Shown here: positions 10,360-19,925 of the stretch, piece by piece
Layout of the letters: each line of letters opens with the position of its first letter
Position numbering within the stretch: position 1 is the stretch's first letter
IMG/VR virus record: IMGVR_UViG_3300042554_001338
Span: 1 to 27,507 of that record
DNA length: 27,507 bases
Direction: 5' to 3' (one strand)
From: a virus
Made by a program: the position numbers and the translations under genes
Notes under the pieces: generated by a model
The model's input: only the letters and a program-made list of their open reading frames with translations
Told to the model about the DNA's origin: nothing
Database searches by the model: none

Positions 10360-10998
10360 ATGCACGTTTACAAAGCCATCAACGCTGTGCAAGCCGATTT
10401 AGCCCGCGAAGGCATCGGCAAAGATCGAAGCAATCAAGCGCAGGGCTACAAGTTCCGCGGGATTGATGACGTTTACAACGCCCTCTCCCCGCTGCTGGCG
10501 AAGCATGGCTTGTGCGTTCTCCCGCGCTGCACCAGCCGCGAAGTGGTGGAGCGCGTCAACGCAAAGGGCACGGCGCTTTTCTACGTTACGGTCTGCGCGG
10601 AGTTCGACTTCGTGGCCGCAGAAGATGGCAGCAAGCATACGGTCGTGACCTACGGCGAGGCCATGGACAGCGGCGACAAGGCCACCAACAAGGCCATGAG
10701 CGCGGCGTACAAATACGCCTGCATGCAAGCCTTCAGCATACCGACCGAGGGCGACAACGACGCCGACGCGCAGACGCACGAAGTGCAGGCAGCCGGCCCG
10801 AATCGAACCCTCGTGATGAAGGTGCAGCGCGCCATCGCTGAACACGTCGCAGAAGAACGCGACCTTGGCGTGATCGAAGAATGGGACGGCGCCAAAGAGC
10901 AGGGCGAAGACTTCGCCTCGTTGGTTTGGGCTGGCCTGACAACCCCGCAGCGCGACAAGGTGCGCGCACTCTCCAACCGCAAGAAAGAAGCCGCATGA
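10360..10998 (+). CDS. erf: Erf-family single-strand annealing protein
   Basis: A 212-residue phage recombinase that anneals complementary single strands. The Erf signature is clear: YKFRGIDDVYNALSPLLAKH (30-49), then GEAMDSGDKATNKAMSAAYK (about 98-117) and ACMQAFSIPTEGDNDAD. The C-terminal part is charged and helical, as usual for the variable tail. ATG preceded by AAAGTAAGGG. Its TGA overlaps the start of the SSB-tailed protein, so annealing and single-strand binding functions are coupled. It could circularise the genome or recombine incoming DNA. Confidence 0.92.
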   Translation: MHVYKAINAVQADLAREGIGKDRSNQAQGYKFRGIDDVYNALSPLLAKHGLCVLPRCTSREVVERVNAKGTALFYVTVCAEFDFVAAEDGSKHTVVTYGEAMDSGDKATNKAMSAAYKYACMQAFSIPTEGDNDADAQTHEVQAAGPNRTLVMKVQRAIAEHVAEERDLGVIEEWDGAKEQGEDFASLVWAGLTTPQRDKVRALSNRKKEAA

Positions 10999-11297: not shown

Positions 11298-11569
11298 TCG
11301 TGCAAAGCCGCAACAAGCCCGCACCCACCGCCGCCGAGCGTTGCCATATCGAGCGCATCAAAGCGATGGCTTGCGTGCTGTGCGATGCGCCAGGGCCGAG
11401 CGAGTGCCACGAGATAGAGCAGGGCAAATGGTTTCTATCGGTCCCGCTGTGCCCTGACTGCCACCGGGGCAGCGTCAACGGGCTGCACGGCCAGCGGAGA
11501 TTGTGGAGCGTGCGCAAGTGGTCGGAGCTTGACGCGCTGAACGAGACGTTACGGAGAATGATGGCGTGA
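11294..11569 (+). CDS. HNH-like zinc-binding nuclease (recombination-associated)
   Basis: A 91-residue protein with CVLC (27-30), CHE (38-40) and CPDCH (53-57), then His65 in GLHG. This is the treble-clef HNH layout of small phage nucleases of the Ref/NinG/DUF968 type, found next to recombination genes. The start is a TTG overlapping the previous TGA; a GTG two codons later is possible. Flanked by Erf and NinB, it likely belongs to the same recombination module. Which family it belongs to cannot be settled by eye. Confidence 0.65.
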   Translation: MIVQSRNKPAPTAAERCHIERIKAMACVLCDAPGPSECHEIEQGKWFLSVPLCPDCHRGSVNGLHGQRRLWSVRKWSELDALNETLRRMMA

Positions 11570-11937
11570 TCTTCCGCCTAGCCCACGCCGAAGCCCGCCA
11601 ACGTGCCCGCGACGCCATCGCTCAGGCCCCTGAGAACTACGTCGTCACCATCAAGCCACCTACGCGCAGCCTCGACCAAAACGCCGCGCTATGGGCGTTG
11701 CTGACGGAGTTTTCGGAGCGGCTGGAATGGCCAGTCAATGGGGCCATGGTGCGGATGACGCCCGAGGAGTGGAAGGACGTGCTCAGTGCTGCTTTCCGCC
11801 AAGAGACCGCGCGCCTGGCCATGGGGCTTACCGGTGGCGTCGTGATGCTCGGCTCGCGCACGTCGAAGATGGACAAGCGGACGTTCAGCGAGTTTCTAGA
11901 CTTCGCGCAAGCGGTGGCAGCCGAGCGATTGGGCTAG
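11566..11937 (+). CDS. ninB: NinB-family recombination protein
   Basis: A 123-residue protein with the NinB/Orf signature SLDQNAALWALLTEFSERLE (35-54), then MTPEEWKDVLSAAF and a conserved GSRTSKMDKRTFSEFLDFAQ. The family binds single-stranded DNA and replaces RecFOR in lambda recombination. GTG start overlaps the previous stop. It is the last gene before the attC array, so the array occupies a nin-like position, where lambdoid phages carry exchangeable genes. Confidence 0.88.
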   Translation: MIFRLAHAEARQRARDAIAQAPENYVVTIKPPTRSLDQNAALWALLTEFSERLEWPVNGAMVRMTPEEWKDVLSAAFRQETARLAMGLTGGVVMLGSRTSKMDKRTFSEFLDFAQAVAAERLG

Positions 11938-11951
11938 GGTTTCCACCTATG
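11935..11951 (+). repeat. 17-nt motif, copy 3, in front of the cassette array
   Basis: TAGGGTTTCCACCTATG, one base different from copy 1. It overlaps the ninB stop and lies 28 nt before the first attC and 66 nt before the first cassette start. If it is a promoter element, it would play the part of the integron Pc promoter for the array. Confidence 0.5.
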
Positions 11952-11978
11952 GCAATGGTGCGATGTGCGGATGATGAT

Positions 11979-12080
11979 GCCTAACGGGCCGGGTAAGCTG
12001 ACCAAGGAGGCGCTACATGAGCACCCGAAGCGATGAGATGCCAGCCGCCGACGCGGGTCAGCTTGACCCGGGTGTTAAGC
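11979..12080 (+). repeat. attC site 1 (102 nt)
   Basis: R'' GCCTAAC at 11979, R' GTTAAGC at 12074. Inner arms GGGTAAGCTGACC and GGTCAGCTTGACCC are complementary except for one extra base. The loop holds AAGGAGG (12004) and the ATG (12017) of the first cassette gene. Confidence 0.85.
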
Positions 12081-12579
12081 GGCCGGTGCCGGAGCGCGAT
12101 GACATTGGCATGCTGAAGGCCGCAGCCGACGCGCTGGGCCTGCAATACGAGTGGCACCACGGCTGCGGCGATGCGTTGCACCTGACAGCATCCGACGCGA
12201 AAGCGATTTACTGGAACCCGCTGCGCAGCGATGCCGACGCGCTGGCCCTGGCCGTGAGCATGGAAATGGACGTGTTCGTGCGCGCCGGCCGCTGGACTGA
12301 AGCAGTGCGCCCCATGGGGCCTGCATGCAAGGAGCCGCACGACGGCGACCCACTGGCGGCCACCAGGCGCGCAATCGTGCGGGCTGCGGTCGAGGTGGCG
12401 CCGCATACGCTGGACGCCGACGACTGGCGCGCGCCCAGCACTGGGACACGGCGCAGCTTTGCGTGGTGGCCGAGCCGAAAGACGCGTTGAAGCTGGGGCA
12501 TTGCTGCCCCTCTGGCGAGTACCTAGACATTGCCGTGGACGATGCAATGCTGATCGGCCGGGCTGTTGGTGCTGCATAA
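12017..12579 (+). pseudogene. Cassette 1 gene, apparently frameshifted (phage WNPLxxDxDAL-type protein)
   Basis: The frame from ATG 12017 (in attC 1, 6 nt after AAGGAGG) encodes DALHLTASDAKAIYWNPLRS and ATRRAIVRAAVEVA, phrases typical of a common phage protein of unknown function. After about codon 137 (DADDW) the sequence turns into unlikely residues and stops at 12490. Reading on in the -1 frame from the GCGCGCG run near 12430 gives ARAQHWDTAQLCVVAEPKDA and a coherent acidic tail to a TAA at 12577-12579, inside R'' of attC 2, as in other cassettes. A one-base loss, sequencing error or programmed shift would explain this. As written, the intact frame is 12017-12490. Confidence 0.6.
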
Positions 12580-12672
12580 CGATAGTTTGAGCCGACAAGG
12601 AGGCCGAGATGAATGAACCGAAGCGCGACAGCGCCCCTGCCGAAGAAGGTCGGCTCGAAACGCCAGTTAGGC
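12574..12672 (+). repeat. attC site 2 (99 nt)
   Basis: R'' GCATAAC at 12574 (one mismatch), R' GTTAGGC at 12666. Arms TTTGAGCCGAC and GTCGGCTCGAAA pair with one extra base. The loop holds AAGGAGG (12597) and ATG 12609. Confidence 0.85.
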
Positions 12673-12935
12673 CCCGCGCGGCGTTTGAGGCGTGGATAAG
12701 CTCGCCGCCCTACGAGCGGGAAGTGGAGCGCTTTGGCGAAAACAGCGCATGGCCCGGGAACTACCGCGAGCTGGACGTTGACTTGGCTTGGTGCGCCTGG
12801 TTGGCTGCGATGGCAACGACCCGCGAGCGCTGCGCGCAGATTCTGGAGCGCATTGCCAACGAGCCGCCCGTAAACGGCAACGACATCGCACAGGCCCGCG
12901 TGTTGCTTGCTGTGGCGCAACTTCGTGGGGCCTAA
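12609..12935 (+). CDS. Cassette 2 protein, phage accessory type (108 aa)
   Basis: ATG 12609 lies in the loop of attC 2, 5 nt after AAGGAGG. The first 19 residues (MNEPKRDSAPAEEGRLETP) are encoded by attC; the phage-like part follows: AFEAWISSPPYEREVERFGE and LDVDLAWCAWLAAM. The FEAWxSxPPxE...W pattern is a frequent phage protein of unknown function. TAA lies inside R'' of attC 3. The reading frame crosses the recombination point as GTT-AGG. Confidence 0.75.
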   Translation: MNEPKRDSAPAEEGRLETPVRPRAAFEAWISSPPYEREVERFGENSAWPGNYRELDVDLAWCAWLAAMATTRERCAQILERIANEPPVNGNDIAQARVLLAVAQLRGA

Positions 12936-12990
12936 CGCTTGAGGAAAGCTGCACGCCGCAGGCGTGTCAGCTTGTGCGAAATGGTTAGGC
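12930..12990 (+). repeat. attC site 3 (61 nt)
   Basis: R'' GCCTAAC at 12930, R' GTTAGGC at 12984. Arms AAAGCTG and GTCAGCTTG pair imperfectly; the short loop (CACGCCGCAGGCGTG) is itself a hairpin. The ATG of the next gene lies 3 nt before R'. Confidence 0.85.
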
Positions 12991-13643
12991 CCGTTTTAAC
13001 CGGAGCGAGACACGGCAGCCCGCCGTGTGGCATCGCCTCGACCGACGGGTTAGCCCGCGTTGCTGTGCTCTTTGCACGCGAGGACAGCGCCTACAAGAAG
13101 CTGCCCGAGTGCGAGGTGTACGACATGGCCCGCGATGCGCGGAACTACGATGGCCCGTGGCCTGTGGTGGCGCACCCGCCTTGCCGCGCATGGGCAACGC
13201 TGCGACACCACGCCAAGCCGCGCGCCGACGAGCGCAACCTTGCGCGCTTGGCGGTGGCGTTGGTGCGTGAGTTCGGCGGCGTGCTGGAACACCCGCACCG
13301 CACGACGCTGTGGGAGGCGCAGCGCCTGCCCGCAGTTGGCCAGCGCGATGCGTTTGGCGGGTTCACGCTGGTGATTGACCAGAACTGGTGGGGCCATCGA
13401 GCGCAGAAACGTACTCGGCTGTACGTGGTGGGCTGCGAGCCTACCGAAGTGCCGCCGCTGCCGCTGGTGCTGGGTGAGGCAACGCACACCGTGGGGCTGT
13501 GGAGTGGCCGCGACAAGGCGACATGCCGGCCGAGCATTGCGAAGCATGAATACGAGAGTACGCCCGACGAACTGGCTTCATGGCTGGTGGCACTGGCACA
13601 GCGGTGCCAGACGCGGGCTAACGCCCGAGTTCAGCCGCCGTAG
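12981..13643 (+). CDS. Cassette 3 protein with PPC and QKRTR motifs, methylase-like (220 aa)
   Basis: Contains VVAHPPCRAW, then EHPHRTTLW, then GHRAQKRTRLYVVG and a TPDELASWLVALAQ tail. HPPC resembles motif IV of C5-cytosine methylases, EHP their motif VI (ENV/ENP), and QKRTR their motif VIII. The glycine-rich SAM motif I is not seen; the N-terminus reads RVAVLFAREDSAYKKLPECE. It is a likely member of a phage family related to C5 methylases, perhaps with a changed reaction. The start is ATG 12981, next to R'; a TTG at 12939 is possible. The C-terminus (NARVQPP) is encoded by attC 4. Homologous to the cassette 7 protein. Confidence 0.7.
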   Translation: MVRPVLTGARHGSPPCGIASTDGLARVAVLFAREDSAYKKLPECEVYDMARDARNYDGPWPVVAHPPCRAWATLRHHAKPRADERNLARLAVALVREFGGVLEHPHRTTLWEAQRLPAVGQRDAFGGFTLVIDQNWWGHRAQKRTRLYVVGCEPTEVPPLPLVLGEATHTVGLWSGRDKATCRPSIAKHEYESTPDELASWLVALAQRCQTRANARVQPP

Positions 13644-13667
13644 GTCGGCTGGAACGAAGTGTTAGGC
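13616..13667 (+). repeat. attC site 4 (52 nt)
   Basis: R'' GGCTAAC at 13616, R' GTTAGGC at 13661. Arms GTTCAGCCG and CGGCTGGAAC pair with one extra base. The shortest full site; the stop TAG of the cassette 3 gene lies inside it. Confidence 0.85.
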
Positions 13668-13715
13668 CCCAACGCGCCGAAGAGAGATAGTGCAACCGTA
13701 CCAGGACTAGACGAC

Positions 13716-13922
13716 GTGGATAAGCAAACAAAGCCGATTCCGACAGCATTGAATGAACACGACCGTCGCCGCCTCCGCGTTGCGGTGAGCCGTGCTGAGC
13801 CCCGATTCTTGCGGACGTACTGCTCGCAATGCGGCGGCGAGTTTGGCCCAGGAGACAGCGGCCTGTCGCACTGCTCTGACCACAGCAAGGCGTCGGCAGG
13901 CCCTGGCGGCCGTAGGGGATGA
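13716..13922 (+). CDS. Cassette 4 gene a, zinc-ribbon protein (68 aa)
   Basis: The GTG at 13716 follows AGGA by 9 nt; an upstream GTG at 13659 that overlaps R' is possible and would add 19 residues. The product begins MDKQTKPIPTALNEHDRRRL and carries YCSQCGGEFGPGDSGLSHCS with DH, a Cys2-Cys-His-type zinc ribbon at about 36-56. Its ATGA junction with gene b makes cassette 4 a two-gene cassette. Function unknown; small ribbons of this kind are frequent in phage accessory regions. Confidence 0.6.
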   Translation: MDKQTKPIPTALNEHDRRRLRVAVSRAEPRFLRTYCSQCGGEFGPGDSGLSHCSDHSKASAGPGGRRG

Positions 13923-14194
13923 CGATGAACGTACCGGAACTTTGTGCCGTGTGCACGCAGGCCCTGATGGCGGGCCAAAACGTCACGCTGTCGCTGCCGA
14001 AGGGCTACAAATGGCCGCACAAGTTCCCGCGCGGCGAGCTGCTGAGCGTTGGCACGAACGGCGCGCGGAACGTAAGCTTTGACCCGCTGCGAGTGCTGGC
14101 CTGGGTGCAGCAGGCTACGAAGGCCATGCAGGCAATTCACGATGGATTCGTACCAAATGCCAGCACTGAGGTGGGCGTGGGCCTTGGGGCCTAA
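13919..14194 (+). CDS. Cassette 4 gene b, unknown (91 aa)
   Basis: ATG 13919 overlaps the preceding TGA, with TAGGGG upstream. Begins MTMNVPELCAVCTQALMAGQ, with a CxxC that might be half of a metal site, then LSLPKGYKWPHKFPRGELLS and a helical tail. No family recognised. TAA lies inside R'' of attC 5 (GCCTAAC), as in most cassettes. Two coupled genes in one cassette would move together. Confidence 0.7.
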   Translation: MTMNVPELCAVCTQALMAGQNVTLSLPKGYKWPHKFPRGELLSVGTNGARNVSFDPLRVLAWVQQATKAMQAIHDGFVPNASTEVGVGLGA

Positions 14195-14289
14195 CGTGCG
14201 AGCTAAGCCGACCAAGGAGGCGGCACGACATGACCGAAGCGAGCAAACCTGACACGCCGACGCGGGTCGGCTTGAGCGAGGGGTTAGGC
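14189..14289 (+). repeat. attC site 5 (101 nt)
   Basis: R'' GCCTAAC at 14189, R' GTTAGGC at 14283. Arms GCGAGCTAAGCCGACC and GGTCGGCTTGAGCGAG pair with few mismatches. The loop holds AAGGAGG (14214) and ATG 14230. Its right arm is nearly identical to that of attC 8. Confidence 0.87.
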
Positions 14290-14523
14290 CCGGCGCCGGA
14301 GCGCGCGGAGTGGGTGCGCGCGTGGTTTGCCGAGCGCTACGCAGACTCTGGCGTGTTTGACGAAGGCGCGGAAGCGCTGACGCTTGAAGCGGCATGCCAG
14401 CTTGTGGCCGATGCACAGGCCGCAGAGCGCGAGCGGTGCGCGAGGCTCTGCGAGACGCTGCGCGTTGTTTGGCGCGAGGCTGACAAATTTGACTGCGCGA
14501 ACGCGATCAGGTTTGGGGCCTAA
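14230..14523 (+). CDS. Cassette 5 protein, phage accessory type (97 aa)
   Basis: ATG 14230 lies in the loop of attC 5, 9 nt after AAGGAGG. The first 20 residues (MTEASKPDTPTRVGLSEGLG) are read from attC, crossing R' as GGG-TTA-GGC. The rest is helical: AEWVRAWFAERYADSGVFDE and LVADAQAAERERCARLCETL, the latter a common phage phrase (AxAERERCA). TAA lies inside R'' of attC 6. Function unknown. Confidence 0.72.
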   Translation: MTEASKPDTPTRVGLSEGLGPAPERAEWVRAWFAERYADSGVFDEGAEALTLEAACQLVADAQAAERERCARLCETLRVVWREADKFDCANAIRFGA

Positions 14524-14604
14524 CGATTGAGGAAAGCTGCCGCGCTGATGCGTGGCCGGAGCGCTGCACCGCCACCCGCGGTCAGCTTGTGCGAAGGGTT
14601 AGCC
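14518..14604 (+). repeat. attC site 6 (87 nt)
   Basis: R'' GCCTAAC at 14518, R' GTTAGCC at 14598 (one mismatch to consensus). Arms GAAAGCTGCC and GTCAGCTTGTGC resemble those of attC 3, so the two sites are related; the loop is longer. Confidence 0.8.
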
Positions 14605-14631
14605 GGCCCTATCCGGCGCGAAAGGACAGTG

Positions 14632-14976
14632 ATGAGCGAAACGACTACGTGGACCAAGCTGCCGGCCATTGAAGGCAAGTACGGTGGCTGCCTGAACTGC
14701 GGGCCGCGCCCGAGCTTCTTCCCGGCTGGTGGGCTGATTGCGGTGGGCTTTGGCTACGCCGCGCTGCACCGCGATGGCGAACCGGTTTACACCGAGCCCA
14801 ACGAGCCCGAGAGCGACGACGCATACATGACCGGCGCGCAGGCCGAGGCGATGGCCGCCGCAGACCCTGACCACGACTGGCGCATCGTTCTGGAGGCGCC
14901 GCTGTCGTCGCGCACGTACCAGCGGCACGGCTACGACCAGTGGGCGCTGGTGGAGCAGGGCATGGGCTTCGCCTGA
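14632..14976 (+). CDS. Cassette 6 protein, unknown (114 aa)
   Basis: ATG 14632 has AAAGGA 5 nt upstream and lies 28 nt past R', so this gene carries its own start inside the cassette. It begins MSETTTWTKLPAIEGKYGGC and contains GGCLNCGPRPSF, a possible half zinc site, then GGLIAVGFGYAALHRDGEPV. It ends ALVEQGMGFA with TGA 9 nt before attC 7. No family recognised; an upstream TTG frame from 14527 would read the whole attC and is less likely. Confidence 0.7.
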   Translation: MSETTTWTKLPAIEGKYGGCLNCGPRPSFFPAGGLIAVGFGYAALHRDGEPVYTEPNEPESDDAYMTGAQAEAMAAADPDHDWRIVLEAPLSSRTYQRHGYDQWALVEQGMGFA

Positions 14977-14985
14977 CAGAAGGCC

Positions 14986-15085
14986 GGCTAACGTTCGAGG
15001 TAAGCAGCCATGACCGGCGCAACGATGTTGGAAGACGAGCAAACGCTGCCCGCCGGGCATGGTCTGCTTGAGCGAGGTGTTATGC
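14986..15085 (+). repeat. attC site 7 (100 nt)
   Basis: R'' GGCTAAC at 14986, R' GTTATGC at 15079 (variant). Arms TTCGAGGTAAGCAG and CTGCTTGAGCGAGG pair with few mismatches. ATG 15010 lies in the loop after GAGG; another ATG (15082) lies within R' itself. Confidence 0.8.
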
Positions 15086-15771
15086 GCCCGGTGGAGTGCC
15101 GGACGGTGGCGGCCCTGTATGTAGAGCCGAAGGGCTGCTATGTGGGTGTGCCAGGCGTGGACCCGTGGGACGAAGCCCGCGATGCGCGCACCTACGCAGG
15201 ACCGCACCCGGTGGTGGCGCACCCGCCCTGCCAGCGCTGGGGCAGGTTCTGGCACGGCAGCACGCGCAAGCCGCACCAGTACAAGCTGGGCGACGACGGC
15301 GGGTGCTTTGAGAAGGCGCTGCATGCGGTGCTGCGCTGGGGTGGCGTACTTGAGCACCCAGCGCACAGCAAAGCATGGGACGCCTTCGGGCTGCGCAAGC
15401 CAGAGGCCGGCAAGGGCTGGCAGCGCGGCGACATGGGTCACCCGGGCAGCGGCTACTCCGTGTGCTACGTGGAGCAGGGCCACTACGGACACGCCAGCCG
15501 GAAGCCAACATGGCTGCTCGCATGGGTGCGACCTGGAAGCCTGCCCGAACTGAACTGGACGAAGGGCGAGCAGCGCCTACCCGAATGGATGATCGAGCGC
15601 TACGGCTACGAGAAGGCCAGGCGCATTGGCGTGGTGGCGATGGTGGGCGGGAAGAACAAGACCGCGATCCGCAACGCCACGCCCGAGCCTTTCCGCGACC
15701 TGCTGCTTTCGATAGCGCGGCAGGCGCATAACGTTCGAGCTAACCGGCCCAGCGGGGCCGAACAGGAGTAG
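15010..15771 (+). CDS. Cassette 7 protein with HPPC motif, paralogue of cassette 3 (253 aa, or 229 from 15082)
   Basis: Shares with the cassette 3 protein the core ARDARTYAGPHPVVAHPPCQ and GGVLEHPAHSKAW. HPPC and EHP match C5-cytosine methylase motifs IV and VI. The motif VIII region reads YGHASRKPTWLLAWV, weaker than in cassette 3. An extra C-terminal part follows (WMIERYGYEKARRIGVVAMV). No SAM motif I is seen. The start at 15010 reads 24 residues through attC 7; the ATG inside R' (15082) gives MRPVECRTVAALYVEPKG, aligning with its paralogue. The stop TAG lies inside attC 8, 3 nt before the next ATG. Confidence 0.7.
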   Translation: MTGATMLEDEQTLPAGHGLLERGVMRPVECRTVAALYVEPKGCYVGVPGVDPWDEARDARTYAGPHPVVAHPPCQRWGRFWHGSTRKPHQYKLGDDGGCFEKALHAVLRWGGVLEHPAHSKAWDAFGLRKPEAGKGWQRGDMGHPGSGYSVCYVEQGHYGHASRKPTWLLAWVRPGSLPELNWTKGEQRLPEWMIERYGYEKARRIGVVAMVGGKNKTAIRNATPEPFRDLLLSIARQAHNVRANRPSGAEQE

Positions 15772-15828
15772 ACGATGCGAGACGATGCAGCCGGCCCCGA
15801 TGGGTCCGCGTTGAGCGAGGGGTTAGGC
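15726..15828 (+). repeat. attC site 8 (103 nt)
   Basis: R'' GCATAAC at 15726, R' GTTAGGC at 15822. Arms TTCGAGCTAACCGG and GCGTTGAGCGAGG pair imperfectly. The loop holds the previous TAG (15769), AGGAG (15764) and ATG 15775. Confidence 0.83.
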
Positions 15829-16191
15829 CCCGGCGTGGAGATGCCCGAGCCGATTGGCGCGGTGATGCCGGAAGACGGGACCGAATACGTGGACTGCTAC
15901 TCGGCCGCGCAAATGCACGACTACGCCAGCGTTTGTGTAGTGGCCGCGACCACGGAGTGCACCGAGCACTGGCAGCGCCGGGCGCAGCAGATCGAAGCGG
16001 GCGGCAATGTGCACTCGCTTGCCGCTGGCGAAGTGAGCCGCCGCACTGATGTTGCTGTGCGGGCAATGGATGCCGCCATCGTGGCCGCGATCAACGCGGC
16101 GAAAGATGCGGGGGTGCCGCAGGGCCTGATCGTGGGGCTGCTGCACAGCTACGCGCACGACCAGACTGCGGCCCTGCTGAATGGGGCCTAA
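15775..16191 (+). CDS. Cassette 8 protein, phage accessory type (138 aa)
   Basis: ATG 15775 lies in attC 8, 6 nt after AGGAG. The first 16 residues, up to EG, are attC-encoded and the frame crosses R' as GGG-TTA-GGC. The body has YVDCYSAAQMHDYASVCVVA, resembling the YSAxQxxxYA phrase of many phage accessory proteins, followed by helices (RTDVAVRAMDAAIVAAINAA; LIVGLLHSYAHDQ). TAA lies inside R'' of attC 9. Function unknown. Confidence 0.75.
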   Translation: MRDDAAGPDGSALSEGLGPGVEMPEPIGAVMPEDGTEYVDCYSAAQMHDYASVCVVAATTECTEHWQRRAQQIEAGGNVHSLAAGEVSRRTDVAVRAMDAAIVAAINAAKDAGVPQGLIVGLLHSYAHDQTAALLNGA

Positions 16192-16240
16192 CGTGGGAAT
16201 TGAGCCGCCGTACTCGGTCGGCTCGAATGACGGGTTAGGC
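16186..16240 (+). repeat. attC site 9 (55 nt)
   Basis: R'' GCCTAAC at 16186, R' GTTAGGC at 16234. Arms AATTGAGCCG and CGGCTCGAATG pair with one extra base. It looks almost identical in form to classical short attC sites of mobile integrons. Confidence 0.9.
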
Positions 16241-16275
16241 GTCTGCCCAATAGACGCCACAGACAGGAGCGAACC

Positions 16276-16467
16276 ATGAACGAAGTTTTCACGATCCGCG
16301 AAGGCGAGTGGCAAGTGCGCCTTGGTAGCGAGGTGCTGCCGACGATTTGGAACAGCAAAGGCGCGGCGATGGCGGGCCTGAAGGTGGAGGTGCGCAGGCG
16401 CGGCATACATGAGCTGTCGCGCGACTGCTGGTGTAAGCCCGAAGTGGCCGCGCCACAAGACGCCTAA
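16276..16467 (+). CDS. Cassette 9 protein, small beta-strand-rich (63 aa)
   Basis: ATG 16276 has AGGAGCG 5 nt upstream and lies 36 nt past R', so the cassette has its own start. Begins MNEVFTIREGEWQVRLGSEV, short strands, then GAAMAGLKVEVRRRG and a Cys pair in RDCWCKPE. No family recognised. TAA lies inside R'' of attC 10. Confidence 0.7.
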   Translation: MNEVFTIREGEWQVRLGSEVLPTIWNSKGAAMAGLKVEVRRRGIHELSRDCWCKPEVAAPQDA

Positions 16468-16523
16468 CGTAAAACTAACCGGCACGGCCCGCAGGGACGG
16501 GTCCGGTTGAGTGGAAGTTAGGC
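16462..16523 (+). repeat. attC site 10 (62 nt)
   Basis: R'' GCCTAAC at 16462, R' GTTAGGC at 16517. Arms AACTAACCGGCAC and GTCCGGTTGAGTGG pair imperfectly; GGCCCGCAGGGAC forms the loop. Confidence 0.85.
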
Positions 16524-16538
16524 GTCATTGGAGAAACC

Positions 16539-16841
16539 ATGCGAGAAACTACATTCAAGATACTGGCGCAGGGCGATGTGCAGATGGCGCATTGCCAGGG
16601 CTACATGGTGGCCGGTGGCGCTGATGCGGTGTGCTTCTACATTGACCCCATCGGCCGAGCCTACATCAGCGCCAGCACGGAAAGCGACAGCGGTTGCCCT
16701 GTGGTGTACGTGTCGCGGGACGACTGCGAGCGCGACACAGAGATTGAGTTCAGCGAGTTCGCAGGCTGGAGGTTCCATGCTGGTGGCGCCGGCAAGACGA
16801 TTGCGGTGGCGCTGGTGCGCCGTGCGGCTGATGACGCCTAA
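16539..16841 (+). CDS. Cassette 10 protein, unknown (100 aa)
   Basis: ATG 16539 has GGAGAAACC directly upstream, 15 nt past R'. Begins MRETTFKILAQGDVQMAHCQ and has alternating hydrophobic strands (YMVAGGADAVCFYIDPIGRA; GCPVVYVSRDDCERDTEIEF). It looks like a small beta-sheet protein. No known family. TAA lies inside R'' of attC 11. Confidence 0.7.
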   Translation: MRETTFKILAQGDVQMAHCQGYMVAGGADAVCFYIDPIGRAYISASTESDSGCPVVYVSRDDCERDTEIEFSEFAGWRFHAGGAGKTIAVALVRRAADDA

Positions 16842-16937
16842 CGCCAGGTTAACCGCGCCCGACACGGCGCACAGGAGCAACGATGAATGAGACACAGCAG
16901 CCCGCCGTGGCGGGTCCGGTTGAACCGACAGTTAGGC
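16836..16937 (+). repeat. attC site 11 (102 nt)
   Basis: R'' GCCTAAC at 16836, R' GTTAGGC at 16931. Arms GGTTAACCGCGCCC and GGGTCCGGTTGAACCG pair with extra bases. The loop holds AGGAG (16873) and ATG 16883. Confidence 0.85.
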
Positions 16938-17125
16938 CGCCGATTGCCGACCGCTACGCGCGGGCTGTGCTGCACGATGACGGCACCTTGCACAACTTCA
17001 TCTTGCGAGTTGGCGGCAAGCCGTACCGCTGCGCATGCGGGTGCAACGTGTTTCACAAGCCAGACCGGGAAGACCTCGGCCTGTATCAGTGCAACGCCTG
17101 CGAGCAGCAGTTTGAGGCGGCCTAA
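16883..17125 (+). CDS. Cassette 11 protein, zinc ribbon (80 aa)
   Basis: ATG 16883 lies in attC 11, 5 nt after AGGAG. The first 17 residues are attC-encoded (MNETQQPAVAGPVEPT) and the frame crosses R' as GTT-AGG. The body holds a zinc ribbon: YRCACGCNVF (about 49-58) and YQCNACEQQF (68-77), four Cys in two CxC/CxxC knuckles. Small ribbons of this kind often bind nucleic acid. TAA lies in the last GCCTAAC (17120), which belongs to the degenerate site. Confidence 0.75.
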   Translation: MNETQQPAVAGPVEPTVRPPIADRYARAVLHDDGTLHNFILRVGGKPYRCACGCNVFHKPDREDLGLYQCNACEQQFEAA

Positions 17126-17137
17126 CTCCTATTAGGC
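17120..17137 (+). repeat. Degenerate terminal attC remnant
   Basis: GCCTAAC is followed after 4 nt by ATTAGGC, so the outer boxes remain while both L boxes and the loop are gone. The first base of R' is A instead of G. It closes the array; the palindrome GTTGCGCAAC follows at 17141. Probably a deletion product and not recombinogenic. Confidence 0.7.
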
Positions 17138-17159
17138 AGCGTTGCGCAACTTTGCACCC

Positions 17160-17450
17160 ATGACCTACCGCAAACGATCCGCCCGATGGGCAGAGAACCG
17201 CGCAGACGACGAGCGCGCCGCCGGCATCCCTGACCGCGAGCCGATCATAGACACGCGCGATGTCGTGCTCATGGACCTGAGCAAGCACGGCGGCAAGCGC
17301 TGGCAGATCGAGCCGCGGCTAGGGTACACATCATGCAGGCTGCGCGACATGGACACCGATGCTGTGGAGTGCGTGGGGACGATGAAGCAGTGCCTTCGGT
17401 GGATGTCGCGCCAGGTCGCGCATCGGCTGGGCGCAAGGGGGCTCCAATGA
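17160..17450 (+). CDS. Phage accessory protein, unknown (96 aa)
   Basis: Begins MTYRKRSARWAENRADDERA, strongly charged. Then DVVLMDLSKHGGKRWQIEPR and CVGTMKQCLRWMSRQVAHRL. The last phrase is seen in small phage proteins. ATG 17160 was chosen over a TTG at 17142; neither has a good ribosome site. First gene after the array; its stop overlaps the next ATG. Function unknown. Confidence 0.6.
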   Translation: MTYRKRSARWAENRADDERAAGIPDREPIIDTRDVVLMDLSKHGGKRWQIEPRLGYTSCRLRDMDTDAVECVGTMKQCLRWMSRQVAHRLGARGLQ

Positions 17451-17698
17451 AAGGGCACACGATGATCGACCTGATAGAGCGGCTGCGCTGCCCAAACGCC
17501 AGCGCTGCCGACTTGTGCGACCTGGCCGACGACGCCGCAGACGCCATTGAGCGCCTGACAGCCGAGCGCGATTCAGCCCGGCGTGACGGCATGAGCGCAG
17601 CGGCAAGCATCCTCGAAGCTGAGCACGAGAAGCGCTCGCATCTGGACAACCATGCAGCCTACTACGCGCGCATGATTCGGGAGCACATCGGGCGATGA
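17447..17698 (+). CDS. Helical phage accessory protein (83 aa)
   Basis: ATG 17447 overlaps the previous TGA (ATGA), with GGGGG upstream. Begins MKGHTMIDLIERLRCPNASA; then DLADDAADAIERLTAERDSA, a helical and coiled-coil-like phrase typical of many phage accessory proteins of unknown function (DxxxLxxxAADxIExL). A start at the second Met (17462) is possible. Its stop overlaps the next small frame. Confidence 0.7.
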   Translation: MKGHTMIDLIERLRCPNASAADLCDLADDAADAIERLTAERDSARRDGMSAAASILEAEHEKRSHLDNHAAYYARMIREHIGR

Positions 17699-18165: not shown

Positions 18166-18184
18166 TGTCAAGGAATCCTTGACA
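18166..18184. promoter_or_regulatory. Near-perfect 19-nt palindrome in the convergent gap
   Basis: TGTCAAGGA and TCCTTGACA are perfect inverted copies around a single A. The site lies in the 18102-18224 gap between the converging rightward and leftward operons. There is no T-run, so terminator function is uncertain. The palindrome contains TTGACA on both strands but no suitable -10. Most likely a protein-binding operator or a recombination or resolution site. The rest of the gap contains nothing I can name. Confidence 0.5.
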
Positions 18185-18224
18185 GCTCATTCCCTCCTAT
18201 TCGGCCAGCTATTCACCCAGCCAT

Positions 18225-19247
18225 TCAGCGCCGCTTGCGCAGGAACGTCAGCCAGTCCGCCGCCGCTTCCACGCACCAGAACGGCTTGACCACCTCGGCG
18301 GGCTTTGCGTCCGGCTGGATCACCAGCGCCACAGACGGCGCGAGGCGCTTCGGCCTGAAGCGGTGTTCCTTCGCGTACTCATCCATGACCTTGTAGCCCG
18401 ACACGCGGAAGAACCAGTGAACGTCACCCTCCAGGCTCGGCTCGATGCGGGCCTCGTCTACGTGGGTGTGACCGGCCACTAGGATGTGGTCCCGGTGGCC
18501 GAAAAGGATTTCCCGCTTCATGCCGTGGGTGTCGCTGAACTGGCTCTTGCCGGGGAAGTCGTGCCGCGCGTGGAGCCTCACTTCCTTGCCGCTCGGCCAC
18601 CGCAGGGCCAGCCTGGCGCCGTGCGACTGGTGAGCACCGGCCGACACGATGAACCGAAGCAAGTCGCCGCCCTGGTTCCATAGGTCATGGTTGCCGTTGA
18701 CGACGAACAGGTTCGGCGCGAGGCCGAGCATCCACTCCGTCAACCGCAGCCCGTCGCTGAAGGTCGTGCTCTGGTGCGCGTACAGCCTAGCCAGCCGGCC
18801 GACCCAGTTGTTCGTCAGGTCGCCAACGTGCCCGGCGTACATGCCCTTTGTTCGTCCGACGGTGGACAGATCATCCTCCAGCCGTCCGATGTCGCACCCG
18901 TCGTCGTCCACGTGCGGATCGCCCACGAGCAGCAAGCCGATAGGGCCCGGGTCGTTCACTTGCACGTCGATGAGCCTTGCCCACTTCTCATGGGCCTGCT
19001 GCCGCGCCAGGCCCAGCCGCTTGCGGGCGATGAGTTCCGCCAGCGGCTCATTGGGGTCAGGGGCCGGGGCTACGCTGACGATCTTGTCAACCTGCACCCG
19101 CTGCATGCTGGCAGCCTTCAGCCTGCACTGAAGCGTGCCGCGGGGGATGCCGAGTTCCTGCGAGGCCCGGCTGACGTTGCCGCCGTTGCGCTCTAGGGCC
19201 GCTTGGGCCTGGGCTATCTTTTCGGCGGTCATCTTGGGGGTCGGCAT
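18225..19247 (-). CDS. Metallophosphoesterase with N-terminal helix-turn-helix (340 aa)
   Basis: Residues 20-43 (RNGGNVSRASQELGIPRGTL) are a Fis-type helix-turn-helix. The calcineurin-like phosphoesterase core follows: GDPHVD (109-114), GDLTNN (142-147), GNHD (185-188) and GHTH (259-262), with all metal-binding residues present. It would hydrolyse a phosphoester, possibly nucleic acid, close to where the HTH binds. The ATG at 19247 follows GGGAGCC and shares one base with the upstream TAA; a longer frame to 19304 overlaps the zinc protein. Last gene of the leftward late block. Confidence 0.85.
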   Translation of the reverse strand: MPTPKMTAEKIAQAQAALERNGGNVSRASQELGIPRGTLQCRLKAASMQRVQVDKIVSVAPAPDPNEPLAELIARKRLGLARQQAHEKWARLIDVQVNDPGPIGLLLVGDPHVDDDGCDIGRLEDDLSTVGRTKGMYAGHVGDLTNNWVGRLARLYAHQSTTFSDGLRLTEWMLGLAPNLFVVNGNHDLWNQGGDLLRFIVSAGAHQSHGARLALRWPSGKEVRLHARHDFPGKSQFSDTHGMKREILFGHRDHILVAGHTHVDEARIEPSLEGDVHWFFRVSGYKVMDEYAKEHRFRPKRLAPSVALVIQPDAKPAEVVKPFWCVEAAADWLTFLRKRR

Positions 19248-19456
19248 TACTGGCTCCCTCGATGCTGGCCGCAATAGTCGTCCGCGGCAGACACCACCGG
19301 CCACATGCTGAACGCGCCGTCTTCCGCGTCATACAGCACGCTGGGCGGGTACATTCGGCATTCGCCTATGCCGAATGAACCCGCCTCTGGCTTGAAATGC
19401 AGACAGTTGCCGCACGTTCGATCACGGGGCGCTGGCCCCTTTTGCTTCGGGGCCAT
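19247..19456 (-). CDS. Small zinc-binding phage protein (69 aa)
   Basis: Cys15 and Cys18 (CGNC), Cys33 in GECRMYPPS and Cys62 in YCGQH make a four-Cys metal site. The CGNCxHF...CRxYPP...YCG pattern is a common phage protein of unknown function. AAGGAGC lies 10 nt before the ATG. It lies between the phosphoesterase and the spanins. Confidence 0.75.
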   Translation of the reverse strand: MAPKQKGPAPRDRTCGNCLHFKPEAGSFGIGECRMYPPSVLYDAEDGAFSMWPVVSAADDYCGQHRGSQ

Positions 19457-19460
19457 TGGG

Positions 19461-19925
19461 CTATCGCTCCTTAGTGATTCCGGCGACGTATCGCTGCAGG
19501 GCTATAAGTCGCGCTGCGGTGTCGTCAGCATTTGCCGCCACCTCTCGAAGAGCTGACGCACATTCGTTGACCACTCCGACGAGTCGGGCGGCGTCATCAG
19601 CTCGGGCGGCGGAGGCGGCACCTTCGGCGGCGTGAAGACCACCGGAGGCGAGGGCGTCGCGCAAGCGGTCAAGCTCAGAGCGAGCGCCGTCAGCGTCAGC
19701 ACGGACGCGGGCCTTTTGGGTTGCATAGGTCTGCGCTGCCTTTCGTGTGTTCGCTGCCCATTCCTGTTCGACGGCTCGGGCGCGTTGCTCTGCCGCGGCC
19801 AGGGCCACGGCTGCGGCTTCCCGGTGCTCGAAGAGTGCGTCCTCGGCCATGTCGAGCCGCCATGTCTGCACGCCGACCGCGACGGCTGACGCCAGCAGCG
19901 CGGCGCATAGGGCGCGAGTAATCAC
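19461..19925 (-). CDS. Rz: Inner-membrane spanin, Rz-like (154 aa)
   Basis: One N-terminal membrane segment (about 4-20: RALCAALLASAVAVGVQ) followed by a long periplasmic coiled coil (EHREAAAVALAAAEQRARAV; DGARSELDRLRDALASGG), then VNECASALREVAANADDTAA. This is the i-spanin layout (DUF2514-like). It links inner and outer membranes with Rz1 to break the outer membrane at lysis. GTG start overlapping the endolysin stop (GTGA). It contains the whole Rz1 gene in another frame. Confidence 0.85.
   Translation of the reverse strand: MITRALCAALLASAVAVGVQTWRLDMAEDALFEHREAAAVALAAAEQRARAVEQEWAANTRKAAQTYATQKARVRADADGARSELDRLRDALASGGLHAAEGAASAARADDAARLVGVVNECASALREVAANADDTAARLIALQRYVAGITKER
19502..19726 (-). 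CDS. Rz1: Outer-membrane spanin lipoprotein, Rz1-like (74 aa), embedded in Rz
   Basis: Lies wholly inside the Rz gene in a different frame. Signal peptide with lipobox LTAC (19-22), then a Pro-rich stretch (PSPPVVFTPPKVPPPPPEL) and a short amphipathic tail (NVRQLFERWRQML). Lipobox, Pro content and nested position are the hallmarks of Rz1. The mature lipoprotein would sit in the outer membrane and pair with Rz. Confidence 0.88.
   Translation of the reverse strand: MQPKRPASVLTLTALALSLTACATPSPPVVFTPPKVPPPPPELMTPPDSSEWSTNVRQLFERWRQMLTTPQRDL

Follow-up and report, generated by a model that had tools for sequence, protein, structure and literature searches.

The 27,507-base window analysed here (IMG/VR virus record IMGVR_UViG_3300042554_001338, positions 1 to 27,507) is a linear viral contig, a metagenome fragment, which carries tailed-phage genes for a Terminase_3 large subunit, a DnaB-like helicase, a DNA methylase and a CHAP endolysin. 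Its plus-strand early operon includes genes for an ERF-family recombinase and a NinB-type mediator, and between the end of NinB (11937) and a small conserved gene (17160-17450) lies an array of eleven repeated sites (11979-16937), all in one orientation, with one or few genes per site. Each site has paired RYYYAAC/GTTRRRY boxes and inner inverted arms, and, judged by sequence, the repeats are integron attC sites that form a cassette array. The sites are listed below with the strand of their canonical top strand; E values refer to the covariance model described in the next paragraph.

11979-12080, minus (canonical top strand): attC 1, arms and boxes; loop with AAGGAGG and an ATG at 12017; the phage left flank joins the array at its left box
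12574-12672, minus: attC 2, arms and boxes; loop with AAGGAGG and an ATG at 12609
12930-12990, minus: attC 3, 61 nt, E=1.5e-15
13616-13667, minus: attC 4, 52 nt, E=2e-15
14189-14289, minus: attC 5, E=1.2e-9; loop with AGGAGG and an ATG at 14230
14518-14604, minus: attC 6, E=3.4e-10
14986-15085, minus: attC 7, E=9e-7
15726-15828, minus: attC 8, arms and boxes; loop with AGGAG and an ATG at 15775; accompanies gene 15775-16191 in the related phage contig L018
16186-16240, minus: attC 9, 55 nt, E=3.4e-13
16462-16523, minus: attC 10, 62 nt, E=4.1e-6 with filters off
16836-16937, minus: attC 11, E=3.1e-4; loop with AGGAG and an ATG at 16883

A preliminary description of this DNA had proposed eleven sites with paired boxes, inner inverted arms and an unpaired base on one arm, all pointing the same way, as the structure of integron attC sites. 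All eleven are present, in a single orientation, and such sites are rare in shuffled sequence. With strict boxes and a score of at least 20, seven of the eleven were recovered, and 20 dinucleotide-shuffled versions of the whole window yielded none; a looser cut, at which all eleven are visible, gave 13 candidates, as against 0.8 on average and at most 4 in 100 shuffles of 11900-17200. Two candidates from the looser cut, at 13232 and 17089, are spurious and are not attC. The unpaired base is the extra C of a TCAAG arm, often joined by a second extra A. For an independent comparison, a covariance model was built from five aligned 60-bp attCs of class 1 resistance integrons, with no phage-type site in the training set, and it matched eight of the eleven sites, all on the minus strand, with E values from 3e-4 to 1.5e-15, which are rough because the calibration was shortened. 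The covariance check suggested in the preliminary description thus returned highly significant attC matches. Since a filters-off search misses sites with long loops, the default setting was run too; the model missed the sites at 11979, 12574 and 15726, which are ~100 nt long with loops of ~50-60 nt or more and clear arms. An Rfam search of the window gave no attC family match. The proposed extent of the array, 11979-17137, stands as far as the eleventh attC at 16937, and the element at its end, GCCTAACTCCTATTAGGC (17120-17137), is not a twelfth attC (Discussed below).

An attC site takes its direction from its extra-helical bases, which are confined to one arm. In the window attCs the extra base is in the right-hand arm, which makes minus the canonical top strand and sets the sites against the genes, every cassette gene being on the plus strand according to a codon-usage gene caller. 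Longest-open-reading-frame calling had given mixed strands in GC-rich arrays and was replaced by the codon-usage model, which separates real genes from antisense shadows. The direction rule was checked on known arrays, the class 1 cassettes (site and gene both minus) and Vibrio phage p16 and Tetrasphaera phage TJE1 (both plus), all of which came out canonical. The picture of ordinary cassettes implied by the preliminary description has to be revised accordingly: attC precedes the gene here, and the cassettes are inverted relative to bacterial ones.

This inversion recurs in other viral contigs, most of which are metagenomic fragments whose viral status comes from the IMG/VR classification. Across IMG/VR, an arm-alignment test placed 63 of 63 resolvable viral arrays opposite to their genes, with four undecided and some loci overlapping within one contig. 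The same test on bacterial arrays with the same attC arms found four canonical, one undecided and one opposite; the opposite array (L248) comes from a Rubrivivax genome, includes genes of phage families (phrog_12600 and an excisionase-like protein) and is probably a prophage. The direction of the covariance-model matches agrees, 83 of 85 being on the minus strand when the integron integrase IntI is on the plus strand (35 IntI-bearing viral loci). Site by site, genes are opposite to attC at all 92 scorable sites in 37 viral loci, comprising 59 of 59 in IntI-bearing loci and 33 of 33 in the window and its IntI-less relatives. In bacterial integrons, by contrast, genes point towards their own attC at 52 of 58 scorable sites and oppose it at six (Fisher p=5e-34, the sites within one locus not being independent), whereas the phage genes point away from it and towards intI, with transcription probably entering from the distal, phage side. 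The orientation of a single site rests on small asymmetries, and two independent methods agree on it.

With minus as the canonical strand, the crossover (G^TT) would fall in the left box as read on the plus strand, and therefore the exchanged unit would be an attC together with its downstream gene. The cassettes so delimited are as follows.

11985-12579, plus: cassette 1, attC 1 and gene 12017-12490 (phrog_5086); frame looks broken
12580-12935, plus: cassette 2, attC 2 and gene 12609-12935; matched by a segment at 93.7% identity in the IntI-bearing phage L262/L315
12936-13621, plus: cassette 3, attC 3 and a phrog_12600 protein (E=2.2e-64), open reading frame 12939-13643; nearest relative in L328
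13622-14194, plus: cassette 4, attC 4 and open reading frames 13659-13922 and 13919-14194, from codon-usage gene calls and homology comparison
14195-14523, plus: cassette 5, attC 5 and gene 14230-14523, from codon-usage gene calls
14524-14991, plus: cassette 6, attC 6 and a gene from near 14632 to 14976; relatives in L378 and L111
14992-15731, plus: cassette 7, attC 7 and a second phrog_12600 protein (E=1.2e-59), start 15010 or 15082; 86% to the Rubrivivax locus L248
15732-16191, plus: cassette 8, attC 8 and gene 15775-16191 (phrog_15190); 100% identical 466-bp block in L018
16192-16467, plus: cassette 9, attC 9 and gene 16276-16467, from codon-usage gene calls
16468-16841, plus: cassette 10, attC 10 and gene 16539-16841; 90% in L167
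16842-17125, plus: cassette 11, attC 11 and gene 16883-17125, from codon-usage gene calls

The boundaries of segments shared among all viral arrays favour the predicted box: among 55 segment starts, 12 fall in the left box and none in the right, and among 75 segment ends, 21 fall in the left box and 12 in the right, where ~2.5% would be expected per class. The attC sites also appear to serve translation. In 58 of 99 long attCs the ribosome-binding site and start of the next gene lie inside the site, as against 2 of 91 short ones, and the window has five such loops, with starts at 12017, 12609, 14230, 15775 and 16883; a TAA within the left box terminates 91 of 151 upstream genes. The gene of cassette 1 is apparently frameshifted, 12017-12490 being continued by 12325-12579 with its TAA in the next box, and contig L001 is identical to the window over 11979-14525, including this cassette.

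The preliminary description had suggested searching related phages for the same flanks with different cassettes, and these were found, with breaks at the attC box. L002 (92%) and L003 (89%) match the left flank of the window to 11986, just within the first left box, and then carry other cassettes, and L018 shares 15729-16194 at 100%, from left box to left box, while its flank (18167-19892) is only 84% identical. In the pair L355/L358 the left side is 99.9% identical to 17 bp within the first left box and identity resumes just right of the attI box, with ~2.8 kb and three detected attCs between them in one as against ~0.4 kb and one attC in the other; L315/L325 show a similar pattern, and L343/L344 and L125/L216 differ by single-cassette indels flanked by attC copies. 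The nearest matches of the window cassettes are spread over different phages (L262/L315, L328, L165/L191, L378, L248, L018 and L167), and 199 cassette proteins fell into 178 clusters, 159 of them singletons. By these alignments, whole cassettes are acquired or lost between attC boxes. Two related contigs end at or near such boxes, L001 at the box of attC 6 (window 14525) and L018 near an attC box (window ~15732), a pattern that cassette variation at these points in the sampled populations would produce.

IntI above the TIGR02249 cut-off was not found in the recovered 27.5 kb of the window, in 20 relatives found via flanking genes or in several large array-bearing contigs, so that intI beside attI, the mark of a complete integron, is absent from the window and is seen in the related phages G030, G034, G035 and others. 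Three of 26 array-bearing records have an IntI over the cut-off, at 425-428 bits. L262 and L263 belong to phages: tail genes and replication or nucleotide genes flank them on both sides, and a phage integrase adjoins IntI. When these IntIs were used as queries, 289 viral loci came up and 80 of them were retained. Maximum-likelihood analysis grouped the first four phage IntIs together (99/96) in a tree with 41 bacterial IntIs. A larger FastTree analysis placed 73 viral IntIs in a single clade (0.91) with one IntI encoded by a bacterial genome, apart from the Burkholderiales-type, class 1 and Vibrio IntIs that were sampled. The phage clade is thus represented in at least 73 viral contigs. A terminase is present in about half of the tested IntI-bearing records, many of which are fragments. 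The bacterial-genome member (L402) is part of an inverted cassette array; next to it are genes for an excisionase-like protein and a phage-type integrase, and beyond these come chromosomal-looking genes. Judged from the translations of these genes, L402 is probably a prophage. Four IMG/VR loci (L383 and L385-L387) were rejected as phage IntI loci: they match almost identically a bacterial locus, L404, which shares a genome with L285 and has an IntI that the tree shows as identical to class 1 IntI1, and they fall outside the phage clade and were not counted. L383, L385, L386 and L387, three of which have isolate-type names, are probably bacterial integrons or plasmids misclassed as viral.

In most IntI-bearing loci the cassettes lie upstream of intI and co-directional with it, and the attCs read the opposite way. 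About 50-260 bp 5' of intI, 59 of 61 loci have RYYYAAC followed by nnnAATTCnnCGnCA (a loose motif); the sequence varies between loci on its cassette side and is conserved on its far side, and from this pattern we identify the motif as a conserved phage attI. The window has a candidate counterpart at the end of its array.

17120-17137, minus: attI-like site GCCTAACTCCTATTAGGC, with an R box GTTAGGC, a 5-nt gap and an inverted box; no attC arms

In nine related loci the corresponding site separates variable cassettes on the left from the conserved flank on the right, the junction pattern to be expected of an attI. The IntI-less relatives share this right-hand junction, which differs in sequence from the intI-linked phage attI and is present in the window in diverged form.

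As for the host, the attC arm type of the window is found mostly in Betaproteobacterial genomes, and an integron IntI, which the IntI-less phages would have to obtain from elsewhere, is carried by 85 of the 201 Rubrivivax-family genomes; from these we infer that the host is probably a Burkholderiales-like bacterium. The betaproteobacterial-type arm pattern was also found twice in a cyanobacterial assembly, at L232 and L261 (a Synechococcus sp. CS-1325 contig).

Cassette families across the phages comprise DNA methyltransferases, Mom, single-stranded DNA (ssDNA)-binding protein, primase, deoxynucleoside monophosphate phosphatase and NinX, and most of the proteins have no family; the PADLOC matches listed are methyltransferases. 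These contents fit a modular exchange of early and counter-restriction genes. The two phrog_12600 proteins of the window array (12939-13643 and 15010-15771) are 32% identical and share a VVAHPPC motif, and other members of the family are found in phage cassettes (L111, L328, L248 and L402) as well as in unrelated phages, microviruses and the Xanthomonas phage fSU1 among them. The cassette 3 protein had no match in plasmids, the phrog_12600 cassette protein has no sequence relative in the PDB, and its predicted fold is of low confidence (mean predicted local distance difference test score, pLDDT, of 50).

The genes that bound the array are the following.

10360-10998, plus: ERF-family ssDNA-annealing recombinase in the left flank of the array (Pfam PF04404, E=5e-25; phrog_155)
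11566-11937, plus: NinB/Orf recombination mediator, the final conserved gene before the array (Pfam PF05772, E=3.9e-28)
17160-17450, plus: small conserved right-flank gene of the MTYRK.../MYRKPSP... family, its start regions aligned in the window, L002, L004, L016 and others

A megablast search of INPHARED gave no near relatives of the window. Contig L016 is 99.9% identical to the window from 17459 on and has a differing version of the gene adjoining the attI-like site and different sequence beyond it (window 17137-17459).

Clusters of attC sites lacking integron integrases (CALINs) have been reported in phages before, so such arrays in phages are not without precedent. Qi et al. 2023 (PMC9892861) reported 17 phage CALINs, counted CALINs and complete integrons together in 21 of 10,705 phages, and showed by assay that IntI1 can recombine attCs from phages. 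By the definition of a phage CALIN (at least two attC and no intI), the window is one, having eleven attC together with terminase, ERF and NinB on one contig. As far as the accessible text describes them, the reported CALINs resemble the window in being attC clusters without intI, with cassettes that often encode DNA methyltransferases; the window differs in its eleven sites, inverted cassettes and attI-like site, and its relatives encode an IntI clade of their own. In the CALIN of phage TJE1 the single scored site is canonical, the gene being followed by an attC in the same direction, unlike the inverted cassettes of the window. The sedentary chromosomal and class 1 integrons of Proteobacteria have the same attC fold, boxes and extra-helical bases and the same TIGR02249 IntI family, and the IntI-bearing phage relatives share with bacterial integrons the intI-attI-array geometry relative to attC. 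In Treponema-type integrons (PMC3607928) intI is transcribed towards attI and lies upstream of the array, whereas in the window type the cassettes are inverted and intI, if present, is downstream; the window itself has no intI and its cassettes are inverted, so it is not of the Treponema type. Virus Rctr41k (KX853513) also has attCs canonical to its genes. Together with L267, L270 and L389, its locus (L284; 4680-9434) represents a second kind of phage integron with a Treponema-like layout, in which intI is upstream of ~130-nt canonical attCs and co-directional with them. Most loci were found via one attC arm pattern or one IntI group, and therefore the inversion may not extend to every phage integron; the sites of Rctr41k and TJE1 read as canonical, unlike the window-type arrays. 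In the accessible open-access literature, a scope outside which preprints and most subscription journals fall, we found no description of inverted phage cassettes, the phage IntI clade or the phage attI.

Taken together, we consider that the region is most probably, at roughly 85%, an eleven-cassette integron array in a tailed-phage early operon, of a phage-adapted type with genes pointing away from attC. In the proposed mechanism, IntI would recombine the folded bottom strand (the plus strand of the window) at the box AA^C (G^TT on minus), and new cassettes would be inserted at the attI-like site at 17120. The genes would be transcribed from an upstream phage promoter back towards attI and not from an intI promoter, which might be why the cassettes are inverted, and the ~100-nt attC loops would provide the ribosome-binding site and start codon. 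The recovered contig has no IntI, so the integrase is probably supplied in trans, the candidate sources being an integron of the host, a prophage resident in it and a second phage infecting the same cell.

Several points weigh against this reading and lend themselves to another, in which the attCs are real and the cassettes are now shuffled by ERF/NinB homologous recombination on the attC repeats instead of by IntI. The window is a linear metagenome fragment without intI, and none was found in its 20 flank-found relatives or in several large array-bearing contigs. ERF and NinB are both encoded directly upstream of the array, ERF could exchange cassettes by annealing at the attC repeats, and some shared segments end within attC arms or at the right box, the latter accounting for the 12 ends given above. 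Homologous exchange should use both arms, however, whereas the breakpoints favour one box (12 starts at the left and none at the right), flank junctions are variable on one box side and conserved on the other, and IntI stands beside the array in many relatives, so we regard shuffling by ERF/NinB as improbable.

A passive, decaying passenger captured once from a bacterial chromosomal integron would account for the same attC arm type in Betaproteobacterial genomes and for the one window cassette gene that looks frameshifted. Such an array would keep its canonical orientation, and the complete inversion at the scorable phage sites, the differing cassettes of near-identical phages and the matches of cassette genes to phage families make this explanation very unlikely. 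It is even harder to credit that the repeats are intergenic regulatory hairpins, such as terminators or translation elements: the long hairpins do contain the ribosome-binding site and start codon of the next gene, but an attC model from unrelated integrons matches them with E down to 1e-15, the extra-helical bases are conserved, exchange boundaries lie at the box, and relatives have IntI and attI.

Beyond the phage-adapted array of the window, the phage integron phenomenon is far wider than a single phage. The arrangement is common to many related phages, some with their own IntI, and this suggests a system of gene exchange operated by the phages themselves. We lean, with less confidence than for the array itself, towards the view that tailed phages of Betaproteobacteria-like hosts have their own integron class, with a specific IntI lineage and attI, a 5' attC that would act as both recombination site and translation start, and a shared cassette pool, and that IntI-less phages keep attI and borrow an integrase from prophages or host integrons.

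Integrons are the textbook device for gene capture and trade in bacteria, resistance genes included. Survey tools that assume the standard order of gene and attC may mis-assign the boundaries of phage cassettes. The cassettes, including DNA methyltransferases, Mom-type modification proteins and ssDNA-binding proteins, offer a route to mining counter-defence genes, and whether a phage IntI shuffles phage genes during infection becomes testable. If phages run a parallel, inverted integron with their own integrase, this would be a mechanism for the fast turnover of phage early regions.

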